A stretch of DNA of 64,000 bases from Actinomycetota bacterium (lineage in GTDB: Bacteria; Actinomycetota; Thermoleophilia; RBG-16-64-13). Location: contig JAAYZX010000043.1 in NCBI GenBank assembly GCA_012514635.1, forward strand, positions 1 through 64,000, written 5' to 3'. Below the pieces are notes generated by a model. It saw nothing but the letters and a program-made list of their open reading frames with translations, was not told the origin of the DNA and did not search any database. The position numbers were made by a program, and so were the translations under genes. Below are positions 12,663 through 60,188 of this stretch, in pieces. Every line of letters starts with the position of its first letter. Within the stretch, counting starts at the first letter, position 1.

Positions 12663-12685
12663 GCTACCGGCCGCCGGCCGGTAGC
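12663..12685 (+). terminator. Hairpin GCTACCGGCC-GCC-GGCCGGTAGC followed by ATTTCTT; terminator-like
   Basis: Perfect 10-bp arms, 3-nt loop. Confidence 0.6.
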
Positions 12686-12692
12686 ATTTCTT

Positions 12693-12726
12693 AATGATAC
12701 GATAATGATATCATTATCGTATCATT
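12693..12726. promoter_or_regulatory. Perfect 34-bp palindrome, candidate operator
   Basis: AATGATACGATAATGAT/ATCATTATCGTATCATT; 43 bp upstream of the SPFH start codon. Confidence 0.85.
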
Positions 12727-12768: not shown

Positions 12769-13806
12769 ATGGACATGCAGGCTTCGAGCGCGAACCGCGA
12801 ACGACCCGGACGCACCATCAGCGGATGGGGCATGTTGGTCATTACGATCATCCTTTTGCTGGGCGGCGCGGCCGTCTTTATCTTTGGGATCGTCCGAGGG
12901 GCGTCGTCCGCATCAGAACAATCGATTTGGTGGATGTTCATATTGGGCTTAGTGGCAATGACCCTGGCATTCGTGTTCATGTCCGGCTTCTTCACACTGC
13001 AACCCAACGAGACCCGCCTACTTATCCTATTTGGCGCCTACAAGGGCACGGCACGGAAGACCGGTTTTCGCTGGGCCAATCCTTTCTACTCCAATGGACC
13101 CAGTCAGCCGAGCGGAGCATCGGCCCACGGACAGAAGAGCGGAACCGGCTCTCGGACCGGAGTCACCAAGCAGGCCGCCGGAACAACCGCCAAGGGCCAA
13201 AGGCGATACAAGATCTCGCTCCGCGCCCGAACCCTGAATGGAGAGAAACTCAAAGTCAATGACAAACGCGGCAATCCCATAGAGATTGCAGCGGTAGTGG
13301 TATGGCACGTGCATGACACGGCTCAAGCCATCTTCGATGTCGACGATTACGAAGAATACGTCACCATGCAGAGCGAATCCGCGGTTCGCCACCTGGCCAG
13401 CGCCTATGCCTATGACCACGGCGAGAGCACCGAGACCACGGAGGAAATCACCCTGCGCAGCAATATCGAGGAGGTTTCCGCGGCTCTTCGTGAGGAACTG
13501 CAGCAACGATTGGCCAAGGCAGGCGTGGTGGTGGACGAGGCCCGGCTGACCCACCTGGCCTATGCCCCCGAGATCGCGCAGGCCATGCTCAGACGTCAGC
13601 AGGCGGAGGCCATCATCGCCGCCCGTCAGAAGATCGTGCACGGCGCAGTCAGCATGGTAGATATGGCGCTAAGAGAGATGTCTGAGAGACAGGTTGTCGA
13701 GCTCGATGACGAACGCAAAGCCTCCATGGTGAGCAACCTTATGGTGGTGCTCTGCGGCGAGTCGGAAGTGCATCCCGTGGTGAACACCGGCACGTTGTAC
13801 CCGTAG
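12769..13806 (+). CDS. SPFH/Band 7 (prohibitin/stomatin-like) domain protein
   Basis: Two N-terminal TMs, [68 protein letters not shown]. Confidence 0.9.
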
Positions 13807-14054
13807 TGGCTGCCGGTCGGGCCGCCGACAATAAGGCAACGGATCACACCACTATGGCTGCACGAAAACAGTATCCTTTGCGTATAGACATGGCACTCTG
13901 GGCCGAGCTGGAAGCATGGGCTGCAGACGAGCTGCGCAGTGTCAACGGCCAGATCGAATACCTTCTGCGCCAAGCCGTAGCTCGACGCAGGGGAACACAT
14001 GGCGTGGAGCCACAGAAGACAGGGCCCGACAACAGAGAGGACGCCGACATATGA
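13806..14054 (+). CDS. Arc-like ribbon-helix-helix DNA-binding protein (alternative start ATG 13854)
   Basis: [42 protein letters not shown] matches RHH pattern; overlaps SPFH stop. Confidence 0.75.
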
Positions 14055-15496
14055 GGGCTCAATTGCGTAAGGATGAACGTTGTTTTCCCGCCGCCACAGC
14101 GGTGGCGTTGATTCTGGTGATTCTCCTGGCGACCGCATGTGGGTCTTCCGCAACCACCACGTCCATCGACGATTCCGCCCCTTCAATCACCACCACAACG
14201 CCAACCAACTCAGCACCCGGCCCGCCGGCCGACCAGGAACAGTTGACCGCTAAAGCGCTCGCTGTATTAGACGCCTTTGTCGCCGAGGACTATGAGGCCG
14301 TCCACCAGACTTTCGACGAAACCATGAAGACCGCTCTTCCCCTGCCCAAACTGCAGGAAGTCTGGGAACAGGTGACCGACCAAGCGGGGTCGTACATAGG
14401 CAACACCGGCGTCCGAACTGAAGAAGTGGACGGGTACCAGGCGATCATCGTTCAGGCTCAGTTCAAGAACGCTCCGTTGGATGTGCGCGTGGTTTTCGAC
14501 CAGACGGGTTTGGTGGCCGGCCTCTTCTTCCAAGCGGCAGAGACCTCATACAAACCACCTCCCTATGTCAAGACCGAAGCCTTCACGTCACGCGAAATCA
14601 CAGTGGTGAACGGCCACTGGGAGCTACCGGGCACCCTGACACTTCCTGTTGCGGAAGAGTTGCTGCCCGGAATTGTACTCGTGCACGGATCGGGGCCTAA
14701 CGACCGCAACGAGACCATCGGCCCCAACCAACCCTTCCGCGACCTGGCGGAGGGATTGGCGAGTATCGGCGTTGCCGTGCTCCGTTATGACAAACGTACG
14801 CTGGTATACGCACAGGAGACTGTGGCCAACGCAGACCTCACGCTGAACGAGGAGACGGTGGACGACGCCGTGGCCGCCTTCCGTCTGCTCCGCGGCCTTC
14901 CGGAGATTGATCCTGCACGCTGCTTCGTTCTCGGCCACAGCCTAGGTGGGTACGCACTGCCCCGGATTGGCGCTTTGACGACCCAGGCGGCCGGTTTCGT
15001 CATCATGGCGGGCGCCGCTCGGCCCCTGGAGGATCTCATTCTTGAACAGATGGAGTACATCTACTCACTCAACTCCTCCCCTACAGAACAGGAAACTGCG
15101 AATATGGCCGCCGTACGAGAGCAGGTTCAACGGGTAAAAGATTCCGCACTCTCCTACAGCACGCCTGCGCACGACCTGCCACTCAATATCCCGGCAACCT
15201 ATTGGTTGGACCTGCGTGACTATGATCCGCCCCTAGCGGCCGCCACACTCGCCCGACCCACGCTGGTACTGCAGGGCGGCCGGGACTACCAGGTGACAGA
15301 GGCGGACCTGCGCTTATGGGAAGCCGCCCTCTCCACCGTTCCCGGCTGTTCATTCACGCTCTATCCGGAACTGAACCACCTATTCATGGAAGGCCAAGGC
15401 AAATCCATTCCCAGCGATTACCTTCGACAGGGCCACATGGCCGAAGTGGTGATAAAAGACATAGGGACTTGGATCGACCAATTCAGGCAACCATAG
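14051..15496 (+). CDS. Secreted lipoprotein alpha/beta hydrolase with N-terminal DUF3887-like domain
   Basis: Lipobox-like [13 protein letters not shown], Thr-rich linker, [54 protein letters not shown]. Confidence 0.85.
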
Positions 15497-15823: not shown

Positions 15824-16309
15824 GTGTCTATCGAGACGAAAGCGGATGCATTGAGCGCGAGCCTCGAGGACTACCTTGAAGCCATCATGCACATCGAGGA
15901 TGAGAAGCAGGCGGCACGTCCCAAGAGCATTGCGCGCCGACTGCACGTCTCCCCACCCTCGGTCACGGCGGCCGTCCAGAGTCTAGCGGCACGGGGTCTC
16001 GTGAACCACCAACCCTATGGCCCTGTGACGCTCACCGACACCGGCCGCGCCTTGGCTACAGACGTGGCGCGTCGTCACGTAGGTCTGCGCCGTTTCCTTG
16101 TCGAGATTCTGCGCATCGAGCGTGCCGAGGCCGACCGAGTGGCGTGCGACATGGAGCACTCACTCCCCTCCGACGTTCTTGCGCGCCTCGTTGAATTCAT
16201 AGACTTCATCGCTAAAAGCCCTCACGGTGGCGTCACCTGGACACCGGATGAGGGTTTCCAGTTGAAATCGGCCGGCGACGATACGGCCGAAGCAACACAG
16301 ATCCGCTAG
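15824..16309 (+). CDS. DtxR/MntR-family metal-dependent transcriptional regulator
   Basis: SLEDYLEAIMHIEDEKQAARPKSIARRLHVSPPSVTAAVQSLAARGLVNHQPYGPVTLT ... RHVGLRRFLVEIL; adjacent to feo genes. Confidence 0.9.
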   Translation: MSIETKADALSASLEDYLEAIMHIEDEKQAARPKSIARRLHVSPPSVTAAVQSLAARGLVNHQPYGPVTLTDTGRALATDVARRHVGLRRFLVEILRIERAEADRVACDMEHSLPSDVLARLVEFIDFIAKSPHGGVTWTPDEGFQLKSAGDDTAEATQIR

Positions 16310-16353
16310 AGACCTGTCCAATCGAGCCTAAGGAGCGGAAACCCGTGGGTCAG

Positions 16354-16373
16354 AAGTTAGTCATAACTAACTT
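16354..16373. promoter_or_regulatory. Candidate operator AAGTTAGT-CATA-ACTAACTT upstream of feoA
   Basis: Perfect 8-4-8 inverted repeat; same TTAGT-N4-ACTAA core as the DtxR-gene site. Confidence 0.65.
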
Positions 16374-16491
16374 AAATGATACTACCGAAGAATTCGCGTG
16401 TGGAAGCCGCCGACGCAGATGGGGATGCTACCGGTTCAGCAGACGTGCTCATGACCCCACACATCCCCGGTATGGCAAATGCTGTGCCCGC

Positions 16492-16767
16492 ATGCGGGAT
16501 GGCGAGAGACCGCTCTCCTCGGCTGAAGCCGGCACAACCGTCAAAGTGCTGCGTGTCTTCGGAGATGAGGAATTTCGAGGCAGGATGATGGCCATGGGAA
16601 TCGTGCCGGGAGCTTCCATTTCCATCGTGAGCGGCGGAGCCAAACAACCGCTGCTGATCGCACTCACGGGCTGCCGATTCGTCATCGATCGGACCGGCTC
16701 TGAAATGATCGCCATCAGCGACCGACAGCCGGTGGGCGAAACAACAGAAGGAGGAGGCGGGGTATGA
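16492..16767 (+). CDS. feoA: FeoA-domain ferrous iron transport protein
   Basis: PLSSAEAGTTVKVLRVFGDEEFRGRMMAMGIVPGASISIVSGGAKQPLLIALTGCRFVIDR; start uncertain. Confidence 0.82.
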   Translation: MRDGERPLSSAEAGTTVKVLRVFGDEEFRGRMMAMGIVPGASISIVSGGAKQPLLIALTGCRFVIDRTGSEMIAISDRQPVGETTEGGGGV

Positions 16768-16994
16768 GATTGAGGGATCTCAAAGTCGGCGAGAGCGCCA
16801 CGGTGGTGGGATACGCGGAAGGCAATCCAGGATACCGTGCGCGTCTACTCGCAATGGGTATTACCAAAGGGAGCTCTCTGAAAGTCATCAAAGTGGCGCC
16901 ACTCGGCGATCCGGTCAAAGTAGAGGTGCGCGGCTACTGCCTATCCCTTCGTAAGGCGGAGGCAGATGTGTTGTTTGTGGAAGGAGGTTCATGA
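16764..16994 (+). CDS. feoA: FeoA-domain protein (second copy)
   Basis: MRLRDLKVGESATVVGYAEGNPGYRARLLAMGITKGSSLKVIKVAPLGDPVKVEVRGYCLSLRKAEA. Confidence 0.92.
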   Translation: MRLRDLKVGESATVVGYAEGNPGYRARLLAMGITKGSSLKVIKVAPLGDPVKVEVRGYCLSLRKAEADVLFVEGGS

Positions 16995-19318
16995 GGGCTC
17001 GTAGCAGTACCATCGCTATAGTAGGTAACCCTAATTGTGGTAAAACTACCCTCTTCAACGCGCTCACCGGCACAGACCAACGCGTGGGCAACTGGCCGGG
17101 TGTCACCGTGGAGAAAAAGGAGGGGAGGCTCTCGCTCTGCGGTGATGATGTTCTGCTGGTTGATCTCCCCGGCATCTACGCCCTTCTCGCCGCATCGGAA
17201 GATGAGCGGGTGGCCCGTGACTATATCCTGAGCGGAGAACCGGGCTTGGTGATCAACGTCCTGGATGCCACCAACCTAGAACGAAATCTGTATCTCACCA
17301 CTCAGCTCCTAGATATGAGAGTTCCATTGGTGGTGATCCTCACCATGATGGATCTGGCGAGAGCACAGAACATCATGATCGATGAGAAGGCCTTGAGTGA
17401 AAAGCTCGGATGCCCCGTAATAGGCCTGGTAGCTACGGATAAGCGCCAGACCCGCGGCGCTTTAGCGATCATTGAGGATGCGTGGGTACGGAAGCAGGTG
17501 TCCGAGACACAGGTGGAGCAGCCCGCCATCGTGGACGAGCTTACTCAGAGGTGGGCGGAGAAGTTGGACGGAGTGGCAGCGGCACTAGGCACCAACAGCC
17601 GCTGGCTCTCGCTGAAAATCATCGAACGCGACGGTTGGGCCACGGCGAAGACCGTGGACGCCGGTGCACTCGATGCGCAGCAGATAGCCACAGATATCGA
17701 GACGCTGGAGGAGACGCTGGGCGAATCCGCCGACATATCCTTGGCTGAAGCCCGATACCGCTTCATTGAGTCGGTGACGCAGCAATCTCTCACCCGGCCT
17801 CCATCAGGACAGACCACGAGTGACAGAATCGACAGAATCATCTTGAACCGATTCCTGGGCATACCCATCTTCCTGGCCGTCATGTACCTGCTCTTCTGGT
17901 TCACAATCAACGTGGGCAGCTCCTTCATCGATTTCTTCGATATTGCAGCCGGGGCCATCTTCGTGGACGGTTTTGGCCGTCTGCTGGAGGCGATCGGCAG
18001 CCCGCAGTGGCTCGTCACCATCCTTGCCAACGGTGTGGGAGCCGGAATCCAGACCGTAGCCACCTTCATCCCAGTCATCTTTGCGATGTTTTTGGGGCTT
18101 TCTCTTCTGGAAGATTCAGGCTACATGGCGCGAGCGGCTTTCGTGATGGACAGATTCATGCGGTGGATCGGTCTGCCCGGCAGATCGTTCGTTCCCATGC
18201 TGGTGGGATTCGGCTGCAACGTCCCCGCCATCATGGCTACACGGACGCTCGAGAACAGGCGTGATCGCTATCTCACCATCTTCATGAACCCCTTCATGTC
18301 GTGTGGCGCCCGTCTCCCCGTGTACGCCCTCTTCGGAGCAGCCTTTTTTGGTGCAGCAGCAGGCGCTATGACGTTCTCTCTCTATGTGGCCGGTATAGTG
18401 GTTGCCATACTAACCGGCCTGCTGCTCAAGAACACCCTCTTCCGCGGAGAGCCCACTTACTTCGTCATGGAATTGCCCCCCTACCATAGACCTCGGATGA
18501 GGGCTATGCTGCAGCATTCATGGCGACGACTCTTCGTCTTCATGAGCAGAGCCAAGTACATTGTGCCGATAGTCGCCGTGTTGGCCGTCCTAAACTCCTG
18601 GGGAACGGATGGTTCCTTCGGCAATGAAGACACATCCACTTCGGTTCTCTCCGGGATCGGCAGGACCATAACCCCGGTGTTCGAGCCTATGGGCGCCCAG
18701 AAGGACAACTGGCCTGCCACGGTGGGCATCTTCACCGGCATTCTGGCCAAGGAAGCGGTGGTGGGTACACTGAACTCCCTCTATAGCCAAGAGGCGGCAG
18801 GCGCAGGCGGAGAGGAGGAGACATTCAACTTCTGGGGGCGGATCGGTGAGGCGCTGACCAGCATTCCGGCCAATTTAGCGGATGTTCCGGCAAGCCTAGC
18901 CGACCCATTCGGTTTTGGGCTCATCGGAGGGCCTGAAGACACAGTGGCCGAGGAGGTGGGCGCTGAAGCCAGCGTCTACGCGGGTCTGCGCGCCGGATTC
19001 ACAGAAGGACGCCCGCAGGCATATGCCTACCTTCTGTTCGTATTGCTCTACATACCCTGCGTAGCGGCCTTCGGCGCCATGACCAAAGAGATGGGCCTGC
19101 GCTATACGCTGCTCGCGCTGGCCTACATCGCAGTGACTTCCTGGTCCCTGGCGACACTCTTCTACCAGGTCACCGTCGCCAGGAACCCGGTCTGGATCAT
19201 CGCGCCGCTGGTCCTGATGGTCGTGATGGCCCTGATGTTGTGGCTCGTGGGGAAAAGCTCGCGGTCTCTCCAGGAGTGCCGCCTCCGGCCGGCGGAGGCG
19301 GAGAGCACAATTACATAG
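16991..19318 (+). CDS. feoB: Ferrous iron transport protein B
   Basis: GNPNCGKTTLFNALTGTDQRVGNWPGVTVEKKEG, DLPGIYAL; GFGCNVPAIMATRTL; ATGA overlap with feoA. Confidence 0.97.
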   Translation: MRARSSTIAIVGNPNCGKTTLFNALTGTDQRVGNWPGVTVEKKEGRLSLCGDDVLLVDLPGIYALLAASEDERVARDYILSGEPGLVINVLDATNLERNLYLTTQLLDMRVPLVVILTMMDLARAQNIMIDEKALSEKLGCPVIGLVATDKRQTRGALAIIEDAWVRKQVSETQVEQPAIVDELTQRWAEKLDGVAAALGTNSRWLSLKIIERDGWATAKTVDAGALDAQQIATDIETLEETLGESADISLAEARYRFIESVTQQSLTRPPSGQTTSDRIDRIILNRFLGIPIFLAVMYLLFWFTINVGSSFIDFFDIAAGAIFVDGFGRLLEAIGSPQWLVTILANGVGAGIQTVATFIPVIFAMFLGLSLLEDSGYMARAAFVMDRFMRWIGLPGRSFVPMLVGFGCNVPAIMATRTLENRRDRYLTIFMNPFMSCGARLPVYALFGAAFFGAAAGAMTFSLYVAGIVVAILTGLLLKNTLFRGEPTYFVMELPPYHRPRMRAMLQHSWRRLFVFMSRAKYIVPIVAVLAVLNSWGTDGSFGNEDTSTSVLSGIGRTITPVFEPMGAQKDNWPATVGIFTGILAKEAVVGTLNSLYSQEAAGAGGEEETFNFWGRIGEALTSIPANLADVPASLADPFGFGLIGGPEDTVAEEVGAEASVYAGLRAGFTEGRPQAYAYLLFVLLYIPCVAAFGAMTKEMGLRYTLLALAYIAVTSWSLATLFYQVTVARNPVWIIAPLVLMVVMALMLWLVGKSSRSLQECRLRPAEAESTIT

Positions 19319-54290: not shown

Positions 54291-54291
54291 T

Positions 54292-54327
54292 GGGGGCCGG
54301 GGAGGCTGTACAGCCTCCCCGGCCCCC
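54292..54327 (-). terminator. Perfect 36-bp palindrome downstream of dodecin
   Basis: GGGGGCCGGGGAGGCTGT/ACAGCCTCCCCGGCCCCC. Confidence 0.65.
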
Positions 54328-54359
54328 AATCCTCACTCTCCTACCTGTGACCGAAAATG

Positions 54360-60160: not shown

Positions 60161-60188
60161 TGCGGATATGGCCGCGGCCATATCCGCA
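60161..60188. terminator. Perfect 28-bp palindrome between tadA and the PLP gene
   Basis: TGCGGATATGGCCG/CGGCCATATCCGCA. Confidence 0.45.

Follow-up and report, generated by a model that had tools for sequence, protein, structure and literature searches.

The window analysed here, a stretch of 64,000 nucleotides, contains a forward-strand operon whose first gene (12769–13806) encodes a 345-aa SPFH/Band_7 membrane protein (Pfam PF01145, E 2.8e-23) that shares 52–71% identity with its orthologues. SPFH proteins, a membrane-organising class, are widespread in bacteria, and the functions of most of them are unclear. The second gene (13854–14054) encodes a 66-aa Arc-like ribbon-helix-helix (RHH) protein, assigned through RHH_5/Arc family matches and predicted to be the operator-binding regulator, while a probable third gene (14051–15496), combining DUF3887 with an alpha/beta hydrolase (EstD-like), has an ATG that overlaps the RHH stop codon by 4 bases. 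The original prediction had placed an RHH gene in the operon downstream of a palindrome, as we find, and had started it at a GTG at 13806; because the orthologues begin M-A-x-R-K, the ATG at 13854 is instead the most likely start. Upstream, a terminator-like hairpin on the same strand (12663–12685) separates the operon from the preceding gene. Just downstream, at 15824–19318, a DtxR-like regulator gene and, after it, two FeoA-like genes and FeoB make up a probable uptake cluster for iron or manganese.

The putative operator, AATGATACGATAATGATATCATTATCGTATCATT, lies at 12693–12726 and is a perfect, spacerless 34-bp palindrome (17+17, no strand assigned), 42 bp from the ATG of the SPFH/Band_7 gene. 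Direct reading of the window sequence confirms this palindrome, as well as the AATGAT at 12693 and 12704 and the ATCATT at 12710 and 12721 with the 11-bp spacing noted earlier. At the GC content of the window, about 7e-6 spacerless palindromes with an arm of at least 17 are expected per 64 kb, and the longest arm in 20 mononucleotide shuffles of the window was 11, compared with 17 in the real palindrome. The 2.34 Mb genome holds a single copy of its core, ATGATATCAT. The palindrome covers exactly three boxes of GATATC type: a left outer box GATACG (12696–12701, centre 12698/12699, offset −11), a central box TGATATCA (12706–12713, with GATATC centred at 12709/12710) that forms the most conserved core, and a right outer box CGTATC (12718–12723, centre 12720/12721, offset +11). 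Each outer box matches GATATC at 4 of 6 positions, and the axis of the palindrome passes through the middle box. A scan of the window site found no recognisable consensus sigma-70 promoter, and TGATATCAT could itself act as an extended −10 element there.

Two further perfect palindromes in the window are hairpins, different in kind from that at 12693–12726: one of 38 bp, GC-rich, intergenic and probably terminator-like (54291–54328), and one of 28 bp, TGCGGATATGGCCGCGGCCATATCCGCA (60161–60188), between a deaminase-like gene and a gene for a trans-sulfuration-type enzyme.

Three phased boxes conserved across phyla

Using SPFH relatives taken from the order of the source organism and from GTDB genomes, we compared 86 related SPFH loci (the window's own excluded, two genomes counted twice) that span Actinobacteria, Verrucomicrobia, Acidobacteria, Gammaproteobacteria, Elusimicrobia and Phycisphaeraceae. 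Of the 86, 71 carry the exact core TGATATCA no more than 350 bp upstream of SPFH. Altogether the 452 kb of these loci hold 73 copies of it, 72 of which are sites upstream of SPFH operons. Among the loci lacking an exact core at this distance, several carry an altered one (L005/L011, L007, L017 and L067), others have the site further upstream of SPFH (about 400 bp in L071, about 1.9 kb in L004 and L006), and L008/L018 and L073 are cut off by contig ends; L045 has no site in the 590 bp upstream of SPFH, and its contig ends before an RHH gene could show. Degenerate cores are found in some of the nearest relatives (G012, G015 and G003) and only one or two boxes in some distant ones (L173 and L175). 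A comparison of regions upstream of SPFH-RHH operons in relatives had been proposed with the original prediction, and it finds the palindrome core conserved in many phyla. On this comparative evidence, the palindrome site very probably represents an RHH operator in the style of MetJ and Arc, conserved across phyla.

In an alignment of 66 sites, from which the window site was left out, the information is concentrated in three GATATC boxes with the consensus GATATCAATGTGATATCACAATGATATCA. The match to GATATC is 4.15 of 6 at offset −11, 6 of 6 at offset 0 (by construction) and 4.59 of 6 at offset +11, and at most 2.7 of 6 at all other offsets, so that the box centres stand exactly at −11, 0 and +11 bp in a tandem, regularly phased array at the promoter. 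In most orthologous sites the full length is not perfectly palindromic; full-length palindromicity is a trait of the window copy, and the phased boxes are the conserved feature. The 11-bp spacing proposed for the repeated elements stands; the conserved unit is a GATATC box, and three such boxes take the place of the paired half-sites. Because the palindrome axis runs through the middle box, an odd number of dimers would be expected, with three the most likely. In 25 of the sites a TTGAC starts 17 bp before the core; in many orthologues the boxes thus sit at the promoter, in or across the interval from the −35 to the −10 element.

Inheritance of the site with the RHH gene

All loci have an RHH gene downstream of SPFH except five, of which two (L045 and L066) are interrupted by contig ends and three (L046, L072 and L088) are complete. 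These three possess SPFH but have no site, and they have no RHH of the Arc-like family genome-wide. We therefore rejected SPFH as the gene to which the site belongs, in favour of RHH; G003, in which RHH and the site are present and no SPFH orthologue was found, speaks against SPFH as well.

A sequence-only site model (R1), built from 40 sites with the window excluded, was run on whole genomes. In the source genome its match at 12695–12725 is the sole place at E≤1. At the same threshold, sites were found in 6 of 8 genomes with RHH and in 0 of 10 without it in the order sample (Fisher p 0.0015); of the two RHH genomes without an R1 site, G012 has a weaker one by PWM and G002 is cut at a contig end. 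Among 22 genomes of relatives, 18 gave a single place each, located on the SPFH contig; G037 had two regions, and the three genomes lacking RHH had none. An independent sample of 150 genomes of the phylum (threshold E≤0.005) gave a site in 13 of 19 RHH genomes versus 4 of 131 without RHH (Fisher p 3e-11). Of the six remaining RHH genomes of this sample (G098, G062, G176, G144, G165 and G166), the first three were inspected and have the core upstream of SPFH. In G075, the RHH gene is at the end of one contig and the site, together with SPFH, at the end of another. As for sites in genomes without the Arc-like RHH, those of G153 and G041 are upstream of a CopG antitoxin-type RHH beside PIN-like proteins, that of G097 falls within an ORF, and G107 is one of the four. 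Weak R1 matches (E>0.01) that this sample gave in small genomes appeared chance-like and were mostly set aside. Across the order, relatives and phylum samples, operator and regulator gene are inherited together.

Rearranged operons show how this linkage is kept. In G011 and G014, genes for an ABC ATPase and permease stand in front of SPFH, with the site ahead of these ABC genes; in G003, the site, ABC exporter genes and RHH are kept in one run, with no SPFH orthologue at E≤1e-20; and in G037, another ABC exporter is preceded by a second, more divergent RHH flanked by two further sites. The L172 match to SPFH (996–1786) covers the C-terminal half only, and site and RHH are retained. From these arrangements it follows that the site travels with RHH and the head of its operon. 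In L123, L124, L125 and L121, ABC exporter genes are added to SPFH or substitute for it in the RHH operon, which the site precedes; this suggests an envelope or export function. Verrucomicrobial loci from Opitutae and Limisphaera (L061, L063, L070 and L087) carry an extra membrane protein of about 180–195 aa between SPFH and RHH.

By its sequence, the RHH protein belongs to a DNA-binding class, and its gene is part of the operon that the site precedes. Its family is short and highly conserved, with K5, R10, R28, S29, N31, E35 and A41 invariant among 23 sequences. At E up to 0.1, Pfam finds RHH_5 in 22 of these 23 members and Arc in 10, and the family profile matches Arc structures (pArc 1u9p, E 0.0032); the window protein alone falls below the Pfam cut-off. 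Aligned with Arc in our own mapping, R10 corresponds to Arc R13 and RSxN to Arc RSVN, and the family varies at the residues aligned with Q9 and N11, which contact bases in Arc. The AlphaFold2 monomer is weak (pLDDT 75.6, pTM 0.41, strand missing), as expected for an obligate dimer fold, RHH strands forming only in dimers.

A probable binding array for RHH dimers and its alternatives

The conservation of the core, the 11-bp phasing and the linkage to RHH all support the original reading of the palindrome as an autoregulatory operator. We consider it highly probable that it serves the SPFH-RHH(-hydrolase) operon, is bound by about three RHH dimers and overlaps the promoter; within this reading, direct binding, the three dimers, repression and the signal are parts that we infer. 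Arc-like RHH dimers, products of operon gene 2, would bind the GATATC-type boxes, whose centres, 11 bp apart, are separated by about one helical turn, so that three boxes, most likely occupied by three dimers, would be neighbours on the same face of the double helix. With the array overlapping the promoter, bound RHH would most likely block RNA polymerase, the simplest mechanism, and repression would hold down expression of SPFH, RHH and the gene after them, until RHH is released by an envelope-related signal.

One of the closest parallels is the Arc protein of phage P22 with the arc operator. Both systems pair an RHH protein carrying an F/Y-x-L-R strand and an R-S-x-N motif with boxes whose centres are 11 bp apart, which is the subsite spacing of Arc. 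In contrast to Arc, the boxes here are GATATC and number three, compared with two Arc dimers, variable or hydrophobic residues take the positions of Q9 and N11, and the setting is a chromosomal SPFH operon instead of a phage switch. MetJ, whose RHH dimers sit side by side on tandem palindromic boxes, offers the same tandem arrangement but recognises 8-bp met boxes (AGACGTCT) with SAM as co-repressor, and no MetJ-like domain was found here. Autoregulation by VapB/CopG-type RHH antitoxins is similar in that CopG-type RHH operons of this phylum have two upstream GATATC boxes exactly 11 bp apart (L166 and L167), and differs in that the SPFH operon has no toxin and its RHH comes from another subgroup. 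GATATC boxes stand upstream of CopG-type RHH genes at L166:274–313, L167:1082–1121 and L169:1662–1701, in the latter two loci beside a PIN-like protein (VapBC-like). Different RHH subgroups therefore seem to share box and spacing.

The original prediction named a Fur-type regulator as the main alternative, in which metal or peroxide control would act through a Fur/Zur/PerR box and the RHH gene would be incidental. Indeed, the inner 18 bp, GATAATGAT-ATCATTATC, resemble the E. coli Fur box GATAATGATAATCATTATC without its central A, two Fur-family proteins are encoded in the genome (PF01475 matches over cut-off), and the DtxR-like regulator and FeoAB-like genes lie 3–6 kb downstream. The spacing, however, is wrong for Fur. 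The consensus of the conserved sites lacks the 7-1-7 layout of a Fur box, and the 19-bp inverted repeat GATAATGATNATCATTATC with up to 3 mismatches has no match anywhere in the genome. A metal regulon would moreover need several sites where the genome has one, and presence and conservation of the site follow RHH, all of which makes Fur control very unlikely. Formation of an RNA or DNA structure (a terminator, attenuator, or replication or recombination site) instead of a protein operator is even harder to credit and strikes us as extremely improbable. A perfect inverted repeat can form a hairpin, and the terminator-like hairpin lies just upstream; yet the palindrome is AT-rich, lacks a T-tract and sits at a promoter, and orthologous sites retain the 11-bp-phased boxes, usually without being long palindromes.

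How the RHH protein would act at its operator leaves more room for debate. Instead of being a simple repressor, the bound protein might be an activator, serve as an architectural protein or work in a conditional complex that includes SPFH or the ABC exporter. The state of the membrane could be sensed by an SPFH partner, and RHH is present in ABC exporter operons too. We nonetheless regard this as unlikely, since in many orthologues the operator sits between the −35 and −10 elements or over them, as is typical of repressors, and since G003, with RHH and operator and no detected SPFH orthologue, indicates that an SPFH partner is not always required. Simple repression by phased RHH dimers accordingly remains our preferred reading of the site.

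In the openly accessible literature searched, neither the SPFH-RHH pair nor its motif was found described, and a description may exist elsewhere; occurrences of TGATATCA in the one paper checked for them proved to be EcoRV primer sites. We tentatively raise the possibility, with less confidence than the operator itself, that these operons form an undescribed cross-phylum envelope-stress module, in which an Arc-like RHH repressor, acting at a near-universal three-box GATATC operator, might control SPFH scaffolds and, in some lineages, ABC exporters in response to the state of the membrane, possibly perceived through SPFH or the exporter itself. The site would provide a sequence signature for a pair of regulator and operator that is found with one SPFH subfamily across many phyla, a signature that predicts which protein binds where and ties the operon to ABC exporters in some lineages. 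As Collinsella, Olsenella and Atopobium are cultured carriers of the pair, the prediction can be tested without recourse to the uncultured source organism.
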